Positions 26,521-35,784 of a stretch of DNA of 39,934 nucleotides are shown one piece after another (position 1 is the stretch's first letter; every line of letters begins with the position of its first letter). Both the position numbers and the translations under genes were made by a program. Source of the DNA: an uncultured Schlesneria sp. (GTDB taxonomy: Bacteria > Planctomycetota > Planctomycetia > Planctomycetales > Planctomycetaceae); the NCBI GenBank assembly GCA_903840265.1, contig CAIMFH010000005.1, positions 1 through 39,934 of the forward strand. The letters run 5' to 3'. The notes beneath the pieces were generated by a model. That model made no database searches. It saw nothing but the letters and a program-made list of their open reading frames with translations, and had not been told where the DNA came from.

Positions 26521-27867
26521 TTACAAGTCGATTCCCAGCTCTTCGATTTTTCGATAGAGACTCGATAGGCCGAGTTTCAATCGCTTGGCGGCTTCGCGTT
26601 TGTCAGGCCATTGATTGAGGACTCGCAGGATGTGCAGTCGCTCATAGTGTCGCAGGGCCGTGCGCAAGTCGTCTGTGTCGGGCAGAGGCTGGTCGGACCC
26701 ACGCAGATCAGGCGGTAAGTCATTTGGGCGGATCTGCGTTCCGTCGCACATCATGACCGCTCTCTCAATCGCGTTGTCTAATTGGCGGACGTTCCCTTTC
26801 CAGGGAGCCGACATCAACGTTCGAATCGTTTCACTTGTTGCAGCAGTGACTCGCTGGCCCATGGCCCGGCTGTGTTTTGCGATGAGGAATTCGACCAGCT
26901 CGGGGATATCGTCCAATCGTTCTCGTAACGGCGGGATCCGGATCGTCATTCCGTCCAAACGATAGAACAGGTCCACTTGAAAGCGACCTTCGGAAACCTC
27001 GACTGACAGGTCTCGTGTGGTGGCAGCAACAATGCGCGCCGACATCTGGAGCGGCTTCGTTGCTCCCAACGGAGTGAATTCCTGATATTCGATGGCTCGC
27101 AGCAGCTTGTCCTGGGTGGCCAGTGGCAATTGCGAGACTTCGTCGAGATAGACTGTTCCGCCACCAACCGTACGAAAGCTACCGGGCACCTCCTCGTTGA
27201 TTCCTGGCAAACCGCCAACGTTGGCACCGAACATCTGCGCTTCCAGTTGTTCGCTGGGTCGCGTCGCACAATTGATAGCGATGAATCCTTCGTCGTGCTT
27301 CGGGCCCCACTTGTGAATTGTCCTGGCAAAGAGTTCTTTGCCAGACCCAGACTCACCGACGAGCAACACATTCGAATTGGTCACGGCGACTCGTCGAGCC
27401 GCATCTTGAACCGCCTTCAAGGCGTTGCTGGAACCGATCAAGGATTCGCCGGATTCCCGGCGTGCCAGTTCTCGACGGAGAAACTGGTTTTCCATTGAGA
27501 GTTCGCGGTACTGAAACAACCGCTTCAGCTTATTCGATAAATCGTCGAAGATGACGGGTTTGACGAGATAGTCGAAAGCCCCCGACTGGAAGGCTTCGAC
27601 AGCGTTCTCGACTGTGGCGTAAGCGGTGATAATCAAGCCTGAAACGCTTGGATTCAGTTGCTGTAGTCGCCTCAGCAGGGCCAATCCGTCACCGTCCGGC
27701 AGCTGCACATCGCAAACGGCAACTTGAAAATCACGTTGACGAGCATGCTGGAGAGCCGCGGCCACGTTTCCCGCGGTCACGACATCGTATCCCTCGTCGC
27801 TCAGGAACTCTCCCAGCGAAGTGCGGATAATGGGTTCGTCTTCAACGATCAATACTGAACGGGGCAT
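26521..27867 (-). CDS. NtrC-family response regulator lacking the GAFTGA motif
   Basis: 448 residues. The receiver domain has the acidic pair E-D-E (9-11), phospho-acceptor Asp53 in CDVQLPDGDG, and a late Lys in LVKP. The AAA+ domain has Walker A GESGSGKE (171-178), Walker B TVYLDEV (about 238-244) and an R-finger region. A C-terminal Fis-type helix-turn-helix follows (R-E-A-A-K-R-L-K-L-G-L-S-S-L-Y-R-K). Where sigma-54 activators have GAFTGA, this protein reads GGLPGI (218-223). It may therefore act without sigma-54. It begins 49 bases after the histidine kinase gene and is its probable partner. Confidence 0.95.
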   Translation of the reverse strand: MPRSVLIVEDEPIIRTSLGEFLSDEGYDVVTAGNVAAALQHARQRDFQVAVCDVQLPDGDGLALLRRLQQLNPSVSGLIITAYATVENAVEAFQSGAFDYLVKPVIFDDLSNKLKRLFQYRELSMENQFLRRELARRESGESLIGSSNALKAVQDAARRVAVTNSNVLLVGESGSGKELFARTIHKWGPKHDEGFIAINCATRPSEQLEAQMFGANVGGLPGINEEVPGSFRTVGGGTVYLDEVSQLPLATQDKLLRAIEYQEFTPLGATKPLQMSARIVAATTRDLSVEVSEGRFQVDLFYRLDGMTIRIPPLRERLDDIPELVEFLIAKHSRAMGQRVTAATSETIRTLMSAPWKGNVRQLDNAIERAVMMCDGTQIRPNDLPPDLRGSDQPLPDTDDLRTALRHYERLHILRVLNQWPDKREAAKRLKLGLSSLYRKIEELGIDL

Positions 27868-27916
27868 ATCAACTTTGAATTGCTGGGGCTTGGTGGGTTG
27901 TCAGTGAAAGCGAATC

Positions 27917-29305
27917 TCAGGTCTCTGCGGACGTGATCAGAGGCAAGGACGGTGGCGCTTCGTCGCGCCTGTTGTCGGTATCATGCCGTTCAGCATCGAG
28001 TTTGGCCAGATTCAGCCGTACAGTGAAGGTCGCTCCTGGCAGCGAACTCGCGGTCAATTCTATCCGTCCGTCATTCTGTTCAACGATATTTCGGCAAACA
28101 AACAGACCGAGGCCGGTCCCTGTCTCTTTGGTCGTGAAGTAGGGAGCAAAGACTCGTTCGCGGTGTTCAGGCGAAATCCCGTGGCCGTCGTCCCGAATGT
28201 CGATTCGGAGTTCATTGGATTCAATCGTGGTGTGGATCTCGATGCAACCACCTTCCTCAGTCGCGTCCATCGCGTTCAGGATCAGGTTTAGGAACACTTG
28301 GACTAACTGATCGCGAACAATCATCAGCGGCGGCAAATTTTCGACATAATCGGTAACGATCCGCTTTCCCTTTTTGCGTTTGTAGTACTTGGCAATGTTC
28401 AGTGCCGCATCGAGGACCGCATGGATGTCACATCGAGATCGCTCGTAAACGACTGGACTGCTGAAGTCGACGAGTTCCCTTAGGGTGCGCTGGATGCGAC
28501 GGAGTTGATCGTCAACCAGTTGCAATTTCTCGCGAGTTTCGGGCTCGATGTTGCGTCGATTCAAGAGTTGAACCAATGAACTAATCGCCGCAAGTGGATT
28601 TCCGACTTCGTGTGCAATGCCGGCCGCGAGCAACCCGAACGCAGCCTGTTTTTCCTGCTGGACGATCATTGCCTGCGATTCCTGCAGTTGCCGCGTGCGT
28701 TCCAGAATTCGATGTTCCAGTAGACGCTGATTTTCCTGAAGCTCGCCATTGAGTTGTCCGAGTCGAGAGCTGGCCCATTTCAACAAGCCAATCAGGGATG
28801 TCCCGGCCCATGTCACCCAGGCCATGAAAATTGGCGTCAGAATCAGGGCGGCAATTTCGTCGCGGCTATGTACCGCCAGTGCGAGAGAGATCGCCGAATA
28901 GCTCAGGACGTGCAGCCCCAGCGTCGCCCAGGTAATCGACGGCTTGTATCGAATCGCGCAGACCAGCAGCGAAAGAAAATAGTAGAACCGGAAGGCGCTC
29001 AACACGCCTCCGTCGAAGTAGCACAGCAGGCCAATGAACATGGCTTCCATCAGCGACACGAACAACGGCCACTCGCTGAAGAAAACCTTGCCATGGAGGC
29101 TGTAGTAAGTGTCGAGAAGCGCGTAGATCGCTCCCAGCACCAGAATGGCATCCAATGCGCTGCGGTTCGAGGCTTCACCGCCACCGATCAGGTTGACGAG
29201 GCCATAGCCAACACAGATCCCAAACCAGCGAATGCGGACGGTGATCGCTTGGACGGATAACTGCCAATCGAAATCGGGCGATTCGATTGTGGGCGACTGC
29301 GACAT
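27917..29305 (-). CDS. Membrane sensor histidine kinase
   Basis: 462 residues. The N-terminal third holds about six hydrophobic segments (23-43, 52-70, 80-97, 101-118, 123-145, 150-177) and no large periplasmic domain, so the signal is probably sensed in or near the membrane. A coiled coil (about 180-222) leads to the H-box G-I-A-H-E-V-G-N-P-L-A-A-I with His232, followed by the N-box (N-L-I-L-N-A-M-D-A), G1 D-D-G-H-G-I and G2 G-T-G-L-G-L. All kinase motifs are intact. The type fits NtrB/ZraS-like HisKA kinases. It forms an operon with the downstream regulator. Confidence 0.94.
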   Translation of the reverse strand: MSQSPTIESPDFDWQLSVQAITVRIRWFGICVGYGLVNLIGGGEASNRSALDAILVLGAIYALLDTYYSLHGKVFFSEWPLFVSLMEAMFIGLLCYFDGGVLSAFRFYYFLSLLVCAIRYKPSITWATLGLHVLSYSAISLALAVHSRDEIAALILTPIFMAWVTWAGTSLIGLLKWASSRLGQLNGELQENQRLLEHRILERTRQLQESQAMIVQQEKQAAFGLLAAGIAHEVGNPLAAISSLVQLLNRRNIEPETREKLQLVDDQLRRIQRTLRELVDFSSPVVYERSRCDIHAVLDAALNIAKYYKRKKGKRIVTDYVENLPPLMIVRDQLVQVFLNLILNAMDATEEGGCIEIHTTIESNELRIDIRDDGHGISPEHRERVFAPYFTTKETGTGLGLFVCRNIVEQNDGRIELTASSLPGATFTVRLNLAKLDAERHDTDNRRDEAPPSLPLITSAET

Positions 29306-29431: not shown

Positions 29432-30337
29432 TTACCGCGTCGGAATAGACGGACGCTTGGCGAATGCCGTGCGAATAATTCCCAGCACCCGTTCGCGTTC
29501 TTCGCCAACCAGTGTGAGCCGCGGTTCACGGACCCATTCGGAACCGAGGCCGGCTTCTTGGACGATCAACTTGATGTACTGAATGAAATGCACATGCGTA
29601 TCCAGCTTCATGAGCGGCTGGCTCCAGCGATAGAGGGCTCGAGCCTTGTCCCATTCACCTGCGCGAGTCAGATCCCAGAGGTGTTGGTTTTCGGCGGGGA
29701 ACCCAATCCCGCTGCCGGCGACCCAGCCGTCGATCCCCAAGATACTCGCTTCGAGCATCAAGTCGTCCACCCCCGTAAAAACGGCGTAACGTCCGCCTAC
29801 CGCATTGTGAATTTCCGTGATCCGGCGGGTATCCGCCGAGCTTTCTTTAATTGCCACGAAGGCAGGTTCATCGGCCAGTTCCGCGAAGAGAGCTGGAGTG
29901 ATGTCGTTCGCGTAGCTGATGGGATTGTTGTAGATCATGATCGGCAACCCGCCGCGTTTGGCCACCGTTCGCAAGTACGTCATGGACTCGCGCGGATCAC
30001 CTCGATAACTCATAGGCGGCATCAGCATCACGCCGCTGGCACCCAGTTTCTTGACATCTTGAACGTATTGCACGGCGGCCGCGGTGCTTGATTCGGCCAC
30101 GCCGCTCAAGACCGGGACTCGACCTCGCGAGGTCTCGACGGCGCAGCGGATCACCGCACATTTCTCGTCAGGAGCCATCGTCTGATTTTCACCGAGGGAA
30201 CCGCACACGATCAGGCCGCTGACTCCACTGGCAATGATCGCTTCAAAATGCCTTGCGGTTGCACCTAGATCCAACGATTGGTCTTGCTTGAATTGCGTCG
30301 TCACTGCGGGAAAGACGCCGGTCCAATAAGGTTGCAT
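29432..30337 (-). CDS. DapA-family lyase/deaminase, probably 1-pyrroline-4-hydroxy-2-carboxylate deaminase
   Basis: 301 residues from ATG 30337, the usual length; an upstream in-frame start at 30373 adds 12 poorly fitting residues. It is a TIM-barrel of the N-acetylneuraminate lyase/DHDPS superfamily with Schiff-base Lys164 in AIKESS and Tyr136 in IYNNP. The substrate loop reads CGSLGE instead of the GTTGE of true DapA, and the H-F-I-Q-Y-I-K-L segment resembles deaminases of hydroxyproline breakdown (EC 3.5.4.22). The specific function is inference from such features and from the neighbouring dehydratase and peptidase. It lies 55 bases after the large peptidase gene. Confidence 0.85.
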   Translation of the reverse strand: MQPYWTGVFPAVTTQFKQDQSLDLGATARHFEAIIASGVSGLIVCGSLGENQTMAPDEKCAVIRCAVETSRGRVPVLSGVAESSTAAAVQYVQDVKKLGASGVMLMPPMSYRGDPRESMTYLRTVAKRGGLPIMIYNNPISYANDITPALFAELADEPAFVAIKESSADTRRITEIHNAVGGRYAVFTGVDDLMLEASILGIDGWVAGSGIGFPAENQHLWDLTRAGEWDKARALYRWSQPLMKLDTHVHFIQYIKLIVQEAGLGSEWVREPRLTLVGEERERVLGIIRTAFAKRPSIPTR

Positions 30338-30392
30338 GTTTTGCCTGTTTGAGAAAAGTCTGTTTGCCTGCAATTTAGCGGCCGCGCCGCCG

Positions 30393-33300
30393 TTAGCGTT
30401 CCGAGGTTCCAGCGGCCTTCGTCTCGACCGAGGCCGGGTTCTGCGGCGAAAGTAAGTGCCGCTGAAAATAGTTCGTCATGACCGAATAGAGATGTCGAGT
30501 CGTGTTTCGCCCTTCCGAAATCGAGTGCGAACGTCCGGGGTAGGGCATGATTTCAAAGGATTTGTTGTTCGCGATCAGATCGTTCATCAACTTCTCCGTT
30601 CCCTGGTAATGGCAGTTGTCATCACCAGTGCCATGCACGAGCAGCAAGTTTCCTTTGAGTTGAGCAGAGTGAGTCAGCGGCGAACCATTTCGATAACCTT
30701 CAGCGTTGTCATCGGGCAAGCCCATGTAACGCTCCTGATAGATGGTGTCGTACAGCTTCTGATCGGCGACAGGGGCGATCGCAACGGCCGTACGATACAG
30801 ATCGGGATATCGAAAGATCATGTTCAGGCTCATGCTGCCCCCGCCGCTCCAGCCCCAGATGCCGACTCGTTGGCTGTCGATCGACGGATATTTCTCGATC
30901 AGAGAACGAGCCGCGTTGGCCTGATCCTGAGACGCCAGGACTCCGACCTGGCGATAAACGCATTTTCGCCACGCGCGACCTCGAGGTGACATGGTTCCCC
31001 GATTATCAATGCTGGCCACCACGCAACCCTGTTGTGCCATCATCATGTGCCAGAGCCCACGCGATCCTTGCCAGGCATCTCGGACAGTTTGGCCGTGAGG
31101 CTCTCCGTAGACGTGAACCAATAGCGGCAGCTTACGGGAGGGATCCGATTTCGCAGGCCTGATACTCCAAGCATCCAGTTGCACATTTTCGCCGATATCC
31201 AATCGCAGGAACTCGGTAGCGACTGGTTGCAACGAAGCGAGCTTCTCACGCAATTTCGAGTTGGTGGCTAATGTCCGAACGACCGAATGATCGGCCATCC
31301 GTATGAGTTCGACGATTGGCGGTTTGGTGAACGTCGAGTAGGTGTGAACAGCCCATTCGGCGTTTGGTGAAATGCTGTAGCCATGCCAGCCTGGTTGATC
31401 GGCGGGTGTCAGGCGTTCCAGCGGGCCACCTCCGATCGCAGTTTGATACAAGTACGACTGAGTCGCATTTTGAGGTGAGGCCGAGTAATACAACTTGGAC
31501 CTGGGCTCATCGACGCCTTCAATGCGAATCACGTCGAATTCACCGGGGGTCAACGCGACCAGAGACGATCCATCGACGGCCGCAACGTACGCGTGTCGCC
31601 AGCCGTCTCGTTCGCTGATCCAGAGAAAGTTTTTGCCGCCGTTCAGCCATTTCACCGGGTTCTCGTTTTCGAGCCAGGCATCGTCGGTTTCAGTGTGAAT
31701 TATTTTTGCCGCACCGGTTAGAGGATCGGCCAACACCACCTTGTTCACGTTCTGCAAACGATTGAATTGTTGCACGAGCAAGGTCTGGCTGTTCGGGGTC
31801 CATTCCATTCTGGCGAGATAGTGGTTCCGCGGATCTCCGGGAATATCCATCCAGCGAACGGGTCCACCCAATGCGTTCACAACGCCAACGCGAACAGCGG
31901 AGTTCTTATCGCCGACTTTTGGATAGGCAAACGAGATCGTCTTGGAATGACTTCCCGACGTGTTTTCGACGAGGTGAAATACGGGAACATCACTCGTATC
32001 GAACTGCCAGAAGGCGACCGCTTTTCCATCGGGACTCCAGCGGAAGGCATCGCGGATTTCGAGTTCCTCCTCATTCACCCAATCGGCAGTCCCATTGATC
32101 AGGTGGTCAGAGCCGTCTGAAGTCAGTTGCGTGATCTCCAGACTCGCGAGGCTCTGCACGTAGAGATTGTTTTTGCGAACGTAGGCGACTTTGGTTCCGT
32201 CGGGTGAAAACTTCGCGAACATCATCGTCGCCGGTTCGGCATCCCCGCCCACTTTTTTGAGCTCGCGGGAGGCAACGTCCAAGACCCAATAGTCGCCGCG
32301 TGTATTTTGACGCCACACTCGATGACTGTTGGTGAAGATCAACAACTTGGCTTCGTCTGCCGAAAACTCAAACCGATCGATCGAAAGCGGCTTCTTGTTG
32401 TCGGCGACGATGAAAGATTGAGCCGAAACGACGATCGTTTTTTCGCCGCTGGCGGCATCAATTCGAACCAGATCACGGCCCTCACCCTTGTCGGCGGCCG
32501 GCTCCTGCGAGAAGTAAGTCCCTGTGAGTTTGCTCCAGACGACGCCAGGCACTTTCTCTTCGTGGAATTCGTCCGAATGGAAGATGCGATCGATTGTCAG
32601 CAAGGTGCCTGTTTCAGCCTCTTGGTTGCGAGCTTCCGCACCTTTGCGAATCGCAACTTTCACTTCTGCCAATCGTTCCGGCCAGACGAACTTGGGGGCT
32701 TTCAACGGATCGTAGCCCTGCAGATGATCTTTCAACCGGTTGATCGGCTTGGTGTACTTCAGCTCGGTCTCGCCGAAGACCTCTCGACAAAGGTCCGCCA
32801 GTCGCGGGTCGTACTCGGCCAATTCGACGCGCGTGTTCACGTGATTGTGATCGTGATCGTTTTCGCGGTTGTTGTCGAACCAGGACTGGACACCCTCTGC
32901 AAAGTATTCATGGTGATTGACGGAGGCATACTTCCCCTTCCACAGACCGCCATCCATCGCCTGTTTGTAGGCGTCCTTCAATCGTCCATTGAATGTGGGG
33001 TCAATATTCTGCATGCCACGCAGATGAATGTTGTGTGCCAACTCGTGGATCAGGATGTTTTCCGTCGAATACGGATCGCCCGAGTAGCCGAGCAAGTTCT
33101 CTTCGCCACACGAGCAGTAGGGGTCCGTCTCGCTGCCGCCAGTCCCGCGAGCACGGGCGTCCCAAAAGTCTTTACCGGAAAATCGTTTCAGATTTCGATC
33201 GGGAGCTTCTCCTTCGCCCAAGTGCGCGAACTCGAGAAGGTCCGTCGTGAATTCATTGTGAGCGATGATGCACAGCCGGGCTCCGCTTTTGGTCATGGCA

Positions 33301-33755
33301 TCACGCACATCCGGTCGCTTCGCCAGCATCAAGTCGATGAGATACGCCGCCTCCTTTAATGCGAACGGATTGACCTTATCGGAGGCCACGATCGGAAATC
33401 CATTCGCACTCGCCGATTGACTATAAAACTTCGGGGCACCGTGCTTGGCTTCAGGATCGAACCGAAATCCCTGAATCGGAACTTCACTGGTGACAATCGC
33501 TTCGACTTTGTCGTCGCGGCCCACGACGGCAAATCGATGTCCCAAGGTCGTCGTGATGACAGTGTCTTTGCCCGGCGCGACTGATCCATTCGGCATTCGC
33601 TCTGAATCAGATTTGAGCCAAAAGATCTCCACAGGCTCATTCGAGCCGTTCAGAATCTGCAATTGCGGACGACGCGGTTTCGCGGTTTCATCGGCATGCA
33701 CGGCCAGCGCGACAAATGCGGGAACAATCATCAACAGATAAATGAACGGTCTCAT
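30393..33755 (-). CDS. Giant secreted peptidase: VHL-like + HExxH metallopeptidase + DPP IV-type S9 peptidase
   Basis: 1120 residues from ATG 33755 (GGAGG precedes, rather close); it starts with a signal peptide (MRPFIYLL..., cleaved near VHA/DE). Residues about 30-95 look like a VHL beta domain (I-L-N-G-S, F-W-L, APGKD, LGH). Residues about 110-350 hold a zinc peptidase with HELAH (237-241) and a likely third ligand Glu287 in YFAEG. A beta-propeller of DPP IV type follows, with W-V-N-E-E-E-L, whose Glu pair binds the substrate N-terminus in DPP IV. The C-terminal alpha/beta hydrolase has Ser970 in GWSGGG, Asp in HGTGDD (about 1045) and His1077 in GRSHS. Both active sites look intact. DPP IV enzymes release Xaa-Pro dipeptides. 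It lies between the dehydratase and the DapA-like gene. Confidence 0.9.
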   Translation of the reverse strand: MRPFIYLLMIVPAFVALAVHADETAKPRRPQLQILNGSNEPVEIFWLKSDSERMPNGSVAPGKDTVITTTLGHRFAVVGRDDKVEAIVTSEVPIQGFRFDPEAKHGAPKFYSQSASANGFPIVASDKVNPFALKEAAYLIDLMLAKRPDVRDAMTKSGARLCIIAHNEFTTDLLEFAHLGEGEAPDRNLKRFSGKDFWDARARGTGGSETDPYCSCGEENLLGYSGDPYSTENILIHELAHNIHLRGMQNIDPTFNGRLKDAYKQAMDGGLWKGKYASVNHHEYFAEGVQSWFDNNRENDHDHNHVNTRVELAEYDPRLADLCREVFGETELKYTKPINRLKDHLQGYDPLKAPKFVWPERLAEVKVAIRKGAEARNQEAETGTLLTIDRIFHSDEFHEEKVPGVVWSKLTGTYFSQEPAADKGEGRDLVRIDAASGEKTIVVSAQSFIVADNKKPLSIDRFEFSADEAKLLIFTNSHRVWRQNTRGDYWVLDVASRELKKVGGDAEPATMMFAKFSPDGTKVAYVRKNNLYVQSLASLEITQLTSDGSDHLINGTADWVNEEELEIRDAFRWSPDGKAVAFWQFDTSDVPVFHLVENTSGSHSKTISFAYPKVGDKNSAVRVGVVNALGGPVRWMDIPGDPRNHYLARMEWTPNSQTLLVQQFNRLQNVNKVVLADPLTGAAKIIHTETDDAWLENENPVKWLNGGKNFLWISERDGWRHAYVAAVDGSSLVALTPGEFDVIRIEGVDEPRSKLYYSASPQNATQSYLYQTAIGGGPLERLTPADQPGWHGYSISPNAEWAVHTYSTFTKPPIVELIRMADHSVVRTLATNSKLREKLASLQPVATEFLRLDIGENVQLDAWSIRPAKSDPSRKLPLLVHVYGEPHGQTVRDAWQGSRGLWHMMMAQQGCVVASIDNRGTMSPRGRAWRKCVYRQVGVLASQDQANAARSLIEKYPSIDSQRVGIWGWSGGGSMSLNMIFRYPDLYRTAVAIAPVADQKLYDTIYQERYMGLPDDNAEGYRNGSPLTHSAQLKGNLLLVHGTGDDNCHYQGTEKLMNDLIANNKSFEIMPYPGRSHSISEGRNTTRHLYSVMTNYFQRHLLSPQNPASVETKAAGTSER

Positions 33756-33832: not shown

Positions 33833-34936
33833 TCAGGAGACATCGACCACGCGCGGCCCGAGCACTGACATCTTCGGTGCGATCCCCAGACCAGCCGAAG
33901 TACTGGCGCTCATGAATCCATTTTGACGCTGAGGAGCACCATCTGCCGTGCTGACCGTGACGTAGCTGTTAAAATCGGTGCTCGTAAATCGAAATTCCTC
34001 GGGAGTGCTGTGTGCCAAGTGAGCAATCGCGGCGGTGGTGATGTCGCCCCCCCAGCTATCCTCCAACGTCATCGCGATTCCCATCGAAACACACAGATCG
34101 CGAGCCTGACGAGTCTTTGTCAGGCCGCCGAGTTTGCTGATCTTGAGATTGACGACATCCATCGCCAGATCGGCTTTGCCGCGCAAAAGCATATCGAGGC
34201 TATCGACATTCTCGTCCAGAACGAACGGGTGGTCGGTGTGTCGTCGGACGGAGAGACATTCTTCGTATGTCAAACAGGGCTGTTCGATGTAGACATCCAC
34301 GTCTCGCACGCCACGCACCACCCGCATCGCTTCGTGCTGTGTCCAGCCGGTATTCGCATCTGCCACGAGCCGATCCGAAGGAGCCAGCATGGCCCGGACA
34401 GCTCGGATACGTTCGATATCGGTGTCAGGATCGCCGCCGACTTTGAGTTGAAACCGCGTGTACCCCGCGGCTCGATATCCTGCGACCTTGCGAGCCATTT
34501 CGTCGGGGGATTCCTGCGAGATCGCACGATACAGCCGAACGCTCTCCCCGAATCGTCCCCCCATCAGAACGCAGACAGGTAACCCAGTTGCCTTGCCGAG
34601 AAGATCCCAACAGGCGATGTCGATCCCTGATTTGACGTAAGCGTGTCCCTTGAGCGCGGCATCCATCCGATGATTGAGTTTGCTCAGCTCTCGCGGGTCG
34701 AAGCCCAGTAGGTGCGGTGCCAGCTCTCGCAGACCCGACCGAACTCCCTCGGCATAGGCCGGCAGGTAGAATGGCCCTAAAGGACAGACTTCGCCGTATC
34801 CAATCAGGCCGCCATCGGTTTCGACCCCCACGATCGTGCTGTCGAAGACGGACACGGATTTACCGCCAGACCAGCGATAGGAGCCTTCGACAAGCGGCAA
34901 TTCAACGCGATGAGCAAAGATCCGAGTGATCTTCAT
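33833..34936 (-). CDS. Enolase-superfamily dehydratase, probably cis-3-hydroxy-L-proline dehydratase
   Basis: 367 residues. It has the N-terminal capping domain and a TIM barrel of the mandelate racemase/muconate lactonising group. Lys165 in RFQLKVGG and Lys265 in NLKISK flank the active site; Asp193, Glu218 (YIEQP) and Asp241 (VLDEN) are the metal ligands. The N-terminal E-G-S-Y-x-W-S-G-G-K and the G-E-V-C-P-L-G-x-x-Y-L-P-A-Y segments resemble what I remember of the characterised cis-3-hydroxyproline dehydratases (EC 4.2.1.171), but this is from memory; a racemase or another dehydratase remains possible. It begins a minus-strand set with the peptidase (77 bases) and DapA-like gene, divergent from the AraC-type regulator. 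Confidence 0.83.
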
Positions 34937-34968: not shown

Positions 34969-35784
34969 ATGGACGATCGGCGTCAGTCCGATTCTACTGA
35001 GCGGCACATTAAGTTACTTGGCGAGAAACGGCATTCCCGCATGAAACCGCGCACAACACAACTGAGTTCCCGGTCCACTTTGGCTTCGCCGGTAAGCGTG
35101 GCGCTGCTGGAGCAATTGTTCGATCAGGTGCCAGATGTCACGTTTTTTATGAAGGATGCCGACGGGCGATATCTGGCCGTCAATGATTCATTGGCGACTC
35201 GGCATGGGTTGAAAAACAAATCTCAGGCGATTGGGAAGCTTCCCAGCGACATCTGCCCCGGCGATCTGGGACGAATTCCGGTTGAGCAGGACGCGACCGT
35301 CATTCGTACGGGGCGACCGTTGTTGAATCACCTCGAACTGCACTGGTATCAGCCCCACCGAGCAGGTTGGTGCCTCACGACAAAGCTGCCGATTGTCCAA
35401 GCCGATGGGATCGTCACCGGAGTGATTGGCATTTCACGCGATGTCCGCGTTCCGATTGAACCTGACGAAATCCCGGCTGATTTCGCGGCCGCCATTCAGG
35501 AAATGGAAGACGACCTGTCGGAATCGATCACACCGGCCGATTTGGCTCGGAGATCTGGACTGACGCCGCAGCGGTTAGCCCGCCTGACCAAGCGGTTGTT
35601 CGGGTTGACCCCCAGCCACTTCATCACGAAATCCAGATTGTCTGCTGCCGCACAAATGCTGCGAGAAACAAGCCAGTCAGTGTCCGAAATCGCCTTGGCT
35701 TGCGGGTTCTACGACCATAGCGCGTTCACTCGGGCGTTCCGTGCAGCCGCCGGTGTCACTCCTACAGAGTTTCGCGGGCGGTGA
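34969..35784 (+). CDS. PAS-domain AraC-family transcription regulator
   Basis: 271 residues from ATG 34969, with AGGG six bases upstream; an ATG at 35041 gives 247 residues and leaves a more usual 104-base divergent region, so the start is open. A PAS fold (about 44-160; [18 protein letters not shown]) is followed by a C-terminal AraC double helix-turn-helix (about 185-271) with the canonical [18 protein letters not shown] and P-T-E-F-R. It is divergent from the dehydratase gene and probably controls that set, with the PAS domain sensing a pathway intermediate. This role is inferred from position. Confidence 0.9.

Follow-up and report, generated by a model that had tools for sequence, protein, structure and literature searches.

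A predicted exported VHL-like, metallopeptidase and DPP IV-type protein encoded beside hydroxyproline-catabolism genes in a planctomycete

The stretch of DNA analysed here, referred to as the window, comprises 39,934 nucleotides of an uncultured Schlesneria sp. (Planctomycetota; GenBank assembly GCA_903840265.1, contig CAIMFH010000005.1, positions 1 to 39,934) and carries at 30393..33755 a gene for a predicted secreted protein in which a domain resembling that of human VHL, an HExxH metallopeptidase (MP) and a DPP IV-type serine peptidase follow one another. The protein is probably (at about 0.6) an exported processing enzyme for proline- or hydroxyproline-rich protein, encoded in a hydroxyproline-catabolism operon. 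The genes of this operon would be cotranscribed, the metallopeptidase, a gluzincin that among solved structures stands closest to Pro-Pro endopeptidases, would cut inside proline-rich chains, and the DPP IV module would take Xaa-Pro or Xaa-Hyp dipeptides off the new N-termini. The VHL-like domain would grip imino acids of the chain in the way human VHL grips hydroxyproline, and its changed pocket may suit another form, for example 3-hydroxyproline. Released hydroxyproline would be consumed by a dehydratase and a DHDPS-type lyase, with a divergently encoded PAS-AraC regulator perhaps in control. A connection of the gene with hydroxyproline, which the original prediction had put forward as inference, is supported by gene order, the dehydratase gene being adjacent in 9 of 11 comparable loci, and by conservation of the pocket in the wider family.

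Domain architecture and the two peptidases

The gene and its predicted parts are located as follows.

30393..33755, minus strand: whole gene of the VHL-like / metallopeptidase / DPP IV-type secreted protein, 1120 amino acids
33693..33755, minus strand: signal peptide, residues 1-21, judged by eye and hydropathy
33492..33683, minus strand: VHL-like beta domain, residues 25-88, from a hidden Markov model (HMM) of bacterial VHL domains
32613..33455, minus strand: HExxH metallopeptidase domain, residues 101-381, from homologue alignment and profile
33033..33047, minus strand: HELAH zinc motif, residues 237-241
32907..32930, minus strand: Tyr276 (putative catalytic Tyr) to Glu283 (putative third zinc ligand), by homology
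31317..32363, minus strand: DPP IV N-terminal beta-propeller, residues 465-813 (Pfam DPPIV_N)
32064..32072, minus strand: Glu562-564, DPP IV double-Glu motif
30453..31043, minus strand: S9 catalytic domain, residues 905-1101, with Ser970, Asp1045 and His1077 (Pfam Peptidase_S9)

An ATG at 33755, preceded 4 bases 5' by GGAGG, and a stop codon ending at 30393 delimit a minus-strand frame without internal stop, and translation of the plus strand of 30393-33755 meets stops throughout; the single open frame of 1120 residues described in the original prediction therefore stands, with its strand corrected to minus, and so, by eye and hydropathy, does its putative signal peptide. The complete architecture, sought in other planctomycetes, was found in two further species, G012 (95% identical) and G011 (71%). 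A misassembly of two genes was considered and is ruled out, since both of these genomes carry the identical domain order in one intact frame. The ratios of nonsynonymous to synonymous substitution rates (dN/dS) between the window and G012 were 0.013 for the VHL-like domain, 0.072 for MP, 0.081 for the propeller and 0.041 for the S9 domain. The four-part architecture is real and under maintaining selection.

Both domains of the DPP IV-type module were recognized by Pfam, DPPIV_N over residues 465-813 (E 3.4e-97, 325.8 bits, cut-off 22) and Peptidase_S9 over residues 905-1101 (E 5.4e-45, 153.9 bits, cut-off 22.6), and the closest solved relatives are DPP IV-type enzymes. As predicted, the propeller motif WVNEEEL (residues 559-565) and the triad of Ser970, Asp1045 and His1077 are all in place, and so are Glu562-Glu564, which we take to hold the N-terminus of the substrate. 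The window protein thus has in common with DPP IV (S9B) both full-length Pfam domains, the Ser/Asp/His triad and the Glu-Glu motif, whereas it adds two N-terminal domains and has a Gly after Ser970. This residue is Ala in six aligned VHL-S9 fusions and Tyr in human DPP IV, where it directly follows the catalytic Ser, so that the S1 pocket may be roomier than in the human enzyme. Among the other Pfam families expected from the original prediction, VHL (PF01847) gave no match and the metallopeptidase models remained below threshold.

For the MP domain the best of these models was ATLF (18.0 versus 27.4 bits), followed by M91 (14.9 versus 25) and M90 (14.0 versus 26.2), the sub-threshold ATLF matches having E values of 0.0025-0.019. 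The HELAH motif is present at residues 237-241 as had been predicted, His237, Glu238, His241, Tyr276, Glu283 and Glu287 are invariant in 30 of 30 aligned homologues, and, judged by active-site residues, both peptidases do look intact. When the MP profile was compared with solved structures in the PDB, the best relatives were, weakly (E 0.016), the Pro-Pro endopeptidases (PPEP), with ATLF-type entries next. Alignment to these enzymes places the third zinc ligand at Glu283 and the catalytic Tyr at Tyr276. In PPEP-3 the corresponding residues are Tyr190 and Glu197, giving the same Tyr-x6-Glu spacing as in the window domain (PMC12828418, in part). As Glu283 and Glu287 are both invariant, conservation alone is not decisive, and it is by this alignment and spacing that Glu283 is more likely to be the third zinc ligand than Glu287, the residue originally proposed. 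HExxH with Tyr-x6-Glu is common to the window domain, PPEP-1, PPEP-3 and the wider ATLF (M34)/M90 gluzincins, from which the window domain is set apart by its weak profile match and by scores under the curated Pfam cut-offs.

Relatives of MP were detected in 33 of 59 related genomes (E<=0.001, the window's own genome counted), and a sample of 198 Planctomycetia had them in 92 (E<=1e-20). When species genomes were scanned, at least 568 stretches, among the 591 listed, proved to code for MP relatives, and 80 loci of named genomes were kept; these belong to Planctomycetota and Verrucomicrobiota as labelled, some labels naming other organisms. Two proteases in one chain had been regarded as a rarity. 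In both phyla, however, the same MP family has DPP IV-type, DUF885, second HExxH (MP2), cyclophilin and VHL partners, and the two-protease chain is therefore no one-off. Of the 80 kept loci, 6 encode MP and a DPP IV-type peptidase in a single frame, in the orders VHL-MP-DPP, MP-DPP, MP-MP2-DPP and MP-DPP-MP2, and two more, L168 and L179, encode them as neighbouring frames; L057 has the order VHL-DPP-MP-MP. The DPP part of the window protein shares 55-61% identity with its counterparts in L168, L179, L211, L212 and L215 and 23-29% with those of VHL-DPP proteins, which suggests that joining probably happened more than once, and the recurrence of the MP-DPP fusion argues that the two peptidases act together. 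The MP2 domain of relatives, which is about 30% identical to the first, exceeded the Pfam ATLF and M90 cut-offs in 3 proteins scanned.

These data also bear on an accidental fusion in which the MP or the DPP IV part would be inactive. Such a view could draw on the MP scores below the Pfam cut-offs compared and on the Gly that stands where human DPP IV has Tyr, but it is very improbable given that the domain order is whole in three species, that dN/dS is 0.01-0.08 across all four domains (against G012), that the active-site residues are invariant and that elsewhere MP and DPP-type peptidases occur joined or side by side in several orders.

Longer chains were also seen in L033, L034 and L036-L039, where VHL-MP is followed by a second HExxH domain and DUF885, presumably a peptidase, apparently giving three peptidase-like domains per chain. 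In L052 and L053, MP is fused to a cyclophilin-type prolyl isomerase, another proline-directed partner, and the family further occurs free-standing and fused to a glycoside hydrolase.

Hydroxyproline-type genes around the peptidase gene

Three neighbouring genes belong to the proposed operon or to its possible control.

33836..34936, minus strand: cis-3-hydroxyproline dehydratase gene (NF043002), just upstream of the peptidase gene
29435..30373, minus strand: DHDPS-family lyase gene (family match), downstream of the peptidase gene
34969..35781, plus strand: PAS-AraC regulator gene, divergent from the dehydratase gene, with relatives at other VHL/hydroxyproline loci

The dehydratase gene scored 610.6 bits with NF043002, for which the cut-off is 500, and its product is of the type of LhpJ, the enolase-type enzyme of the hydroxyproline cluster of Labrenzia aggregata (PMC5144071, in part). 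Among the 59 related genomes, 11 loci with VHL-like plus MP domains were present in the regions fetched; the dehydratase gene is adjacent and on the same strand in 9, and no dehydratase gene was detected at E<=1e-100 in the remaining two genomes (G025, G050). All nine come from one genus and are therefore not independent. The C-terminal partner in these nine is DPP IV in 3 (window, G012, G011) and a second HExxH domain with DUF885 in 6. The dehydratase linkage thus persists when the C-terminal enzyme is swapped, which speaks against a general scavenging of proline-rich protein, in which MP and DPP IV would free Pro dipeptides, the VHL-like domain would be merely structural or anchoring and the dehydratase gene would be adjacent since the substrate holds some hydroxyproline. 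Scavenging of this kind, with which the occurrence of MP alone or with cyclophilin, DUF885 or a glycoside hydrolase is in keeping, is considered unlikely. Within the 80 kept loci, a dehydratase gene lies near the VHL-MP gene in 9, Verrucomicrobiota, as labelled, included (L136, L139, L140, L144, L147, L152, L157, L160, L170), with L136, L147 and L160 apparently repeating genomes already counted and several contigs being too short to judge.

Relatives of the DHDPS gene are found within 200 bp of a Pro_racemase gene in 7 of 16 places. The PAS-AraC gene, a candidate for a hydroxyproline-responsive regulator, has relatives at L031, L032/L136, L152, L170 and L183 and, at 37-43%, at L105 and L106. 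Following the operon on the same strand, the window carries a histidine kinase and a sigma-54 response regulator (26524-29305), a pair that is kept in L031 (98%) and for which L032 and the remaining loci covered gave no match at E<=1e-25.

In L105, genes for VHL-DPP, Pro_racemase, DAO, Pyr_redox_2, DHDPS and Aldedh are consecutive, families that we take to represent steps of the trans-4-hydroxyproline route. L049 combines DHDPS, Pro_racemase, a DAO-like gene and MP-VHL; L106 has Pro_racemase, DAO, a VHL sulfatase lacking His115 and a weak DHDPS match; and L204 has DHDPS, VHL-MP, two sulfatases, Pro_racemase, VHL-DPP and DAO. The route itself follows in part PMC5144071 and PMC4364671, and the hydroxyproline clusters described in the available parts of these papers consist of transporters, a regulator and catabolic enzymes. 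Such clusters are matched by the dehydratase above the NF043002 cut-off in the window and by Pro_racemase, DAO, DHDPS and Aldedh in L105, whereas the secreted VHL-peptidase belongs to the cluster of the window and is not in those described, as far as these parts of the papers go.

Gene pairs no more than 10 kb apart were counted in the 198 Planctomycetia and compared with the expectation for a genome of 6.6 Mb, entering 65 of 66 VHL places (the second copy on G027 was omitted) and 106 MP places (nine second matches in the same genes were omitted). MP and dehydratase were paired 6 times (0.25 expected; a single genus supplied four of these pairs), Pro_racemase and dehydratase 6 times (0.32 expected), VHL and Pro_racemase in 3 of the 65 places (0.15 expected), MP and Pro_racemase twice (0.27 expected) and VHL and MP twice (0.15 expected), both times as a single gene. 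At the level of genomes, the dehydratase co-occurred significantly with both VHL (p 7e-4) and MP (p 8e-6), as did MP with Pro_racemase (p 3e-6); for VHL, co-occurrence with Pro_racemase (p 0.096) or with MP (p 0.11) was not significant. The proposition that all VHL genes lie in hydroxyproline operons was rejected, 3 of 65 being near Pro_racemase and 0 of 65 near a dehydratase gene, with none new in other classes.

The VHL-like domain and its pocket

Human VHL is known as the hydroxyproline reader that acts on HIF. With the window protein or its N-terminal 100 amino acids, Pfam VHL gave no match at E<=10, and its cut-off was reached by other members of the same peptidase family (L049, L046, L057). 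An HMM built solely from 40 other PF01847 domains of Planctomycetia matched residues 25-88 of the window protein (E 3.6e-8 among 8151 open frames) and ten relatives of the window domain at E 1.5e-8 to 3.6e-5, the first unrelated frame appearing at E 0.37. The same HMM recovered a human VHL fragment (E 1.5e-13 among 16425 sequences), and hhalign of 12 domains of the window type with 10 canonical bacterial VHL domains gave a probability of 97%. By these profile comparisons the window domain, placed at residues 25-88 (about 30-95 in the original prediction), is homologous to the VHL beta domain. PF01847 exceeded its cut-off in 55 of the 198 Planctomycetia and in none of 14 control genomes. In a phylum-wide sample, which overlaps that of the class, 55 of 392 genomes had it. 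VHL and a DPP IV-like S9 peptidase share one frame in 34 of 40 class loci examined; among 27 frames from other classes, where the loci were truncated, at least 18 combine VHL and S9. A literature search on VHL in planctomycetes found, in the portions of papers accessible to it, nothing on the subject save an in-silico study of one single bacterial VHL protein (PMC9002001).

In human VHL, hydroxyproline is held by Trp88, Tyr98, Ser111, His115 and Trp117, with Ser111 and His115 gripping the hydroxyl (PMC9528729 and PMC6650433, both in part). The window domain, which differs from human VHL in being bacterial and part of an exported peptidase, keeps Trp88 (as Trp46), Ser111 (as Thr69 or a neighbour), Gly114 (as Gly72) and His115 (as His73), whereas Tyr98 is replaced by Asn56, His110 by Thr and Trp117 by Phe75. 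Judged from this alignment, the pocket of the window copy is altered relative to human VHL.

In canonical bacterial VHL domains the pocket columns are among the most conserved of the alignment. For 49 unique domains, the residue of human VHL was found 49 times at Trp88, 48 at Tyr98, 48 at Ser111 (as Thr or Ser), 40 at His115 and 48 at Trp117, and for 27 domains from other classes, which played no part in building the HMM, the numbers were 27, 27, 27, 25 and 27. Five columns drawn at random reached the conservation of the pocket in 0 of 20,000 draws in each of the two sets. Of 39 canonical domains on peptidases, 38 keep His115, the exception being L120 with Asp, and none of the 6 domains on sulfatases (4) or leucine-rich repeat (LRR) proteins (2) does. 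The 39 leave out, from the 49, the four sulfatase, two LRR and two L098 rows, L108 (truncated) and L205 (fragment), the last a short row resembling a piece of the other VHL type.

Domains of the window type, which directly precede MP, were gathered through the peptidase and not with Pfam VHL. All 73 unique domains have Trp at position 88 and Thr at 111, 72 have His115, and five random columns matched the conservation of the pocket in 6 of 20,000 draws, a further point against the merely structural domain of the scavenging explanation.

The sulfatases with C-terminal VHL domains lead to another explanation, in which the VHL-like domain would bind a glycan, or hydroxyproline in glycosylated or sulfated form, of algal wall glycoproteins, and sulfatase, peptidases and hydroxyproline catabolism together would strip a hydroxyproline-rich glycoprotein matrix. 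Such sulfatases do occur in clusters with hydroxyproline-type genes (L106, L144, L204), and plain sulfatases flank the VHL-MP gene in L157. This explanation is nevertheless quite improbable: the window genes that were scanned near the operon include no sulfatase; all 4 sulfatase-linked VHL domains have lost His115 and therefore probably bind something else; and sulfatases are very numerous in planctomycetes, so that they may be neighbours by chance.

Points for and against a hydroxyproline role

Several observations weigh against the proposed role in hydroxyproline processing. The DHDPS gene of the window reaches no equivalog cut-off, the sole Pro_racemase found in its genome is on another contig (C107), L033, L034 and L036-L039 gave no match to the PAS-AraC gene at E<=1e-25, and the similarity of MP to Pro-Pro endopeptidases is the weak one given above. 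In other genomes, the DHDPS match of L106 is only 31%, and as PF05544 spans proline racemase and trans-3-hydroxyproline dehydratase too, a match to it is no proof of an epimerase. The pair and co-occurrence statistics were made without control for phylogeny, VHL-dehydratase pairs occurred in 0 of 65 places (0.17 expected), and in the phylum sample of 392 genomes, with VHL in 55 and Pro_racemase in 77, only G015 (already counted) had the two within 10 kb among 35 same-genome pairs; most canonical VHL-S9 genes are outside hydroxyproline clusters. The Pfam VHL model served to gather the two canonical sets, the second of them from the matches that scored best, and this biases them towards VHL-like residues. 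In the window type, Asn stands at Tyr98 in 61 of 73 domains and Phe at Trp117 in 72 of 73, and His110 is not kept; this altered pocket, like the VHL domains on sulfatases and LRR proteins, also favours the scavenging explanation.

A broader proposal, which is possible but held with less confidence than the role of the window protein as an exported processing enzyme, is that peptidase-borne bacterial VHL domains would be hydroxyproline readers of exported hydrolases and that the animal VHL pocket would probably derive from them or be their sister. The VHL-MP subfamily of the window would then have a pocket re-tuned, with Asn for Tyr98 and Phe for Trp117, to a different imino acid, 3-hydroxyproline for instance, matching the neighbouring 3-hydroxyproline dehydratase. 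VHL homologues with a near-complete pocket are present in a quarter of the sampled Planctomycetia (55 of 198) and in other classes, mostly on S9 peptidases, and a few lie beside hydroxyproline-catabolism genes. If bacterial VHL domains bind hydroxyproline, the reader role would be wider than oxygen sensing and include a simpler use in protein digestion, and a possible route would be at hand by which aquatic bacteria degrade collagen-like or algal hydroxyproline-rich proteins. The natural variants of the pocket could also serve the study of ligand selectivity in VHL.

Some VHL domains occur in other settings. Besides those at the C-terminus of sulfatases, L098 (5012-7954) has a 981-amino-acid frame in which Pfam recognizes two VHL domains and, at E<=0.001, nothing else. 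L241 has VHL domains in two separate frames, which account for both losses of His115 in the set of 27. In L107 and L114, VHL ends frames of about 300-420 amino acids with leucine-rich repeats, and His115 is lost.

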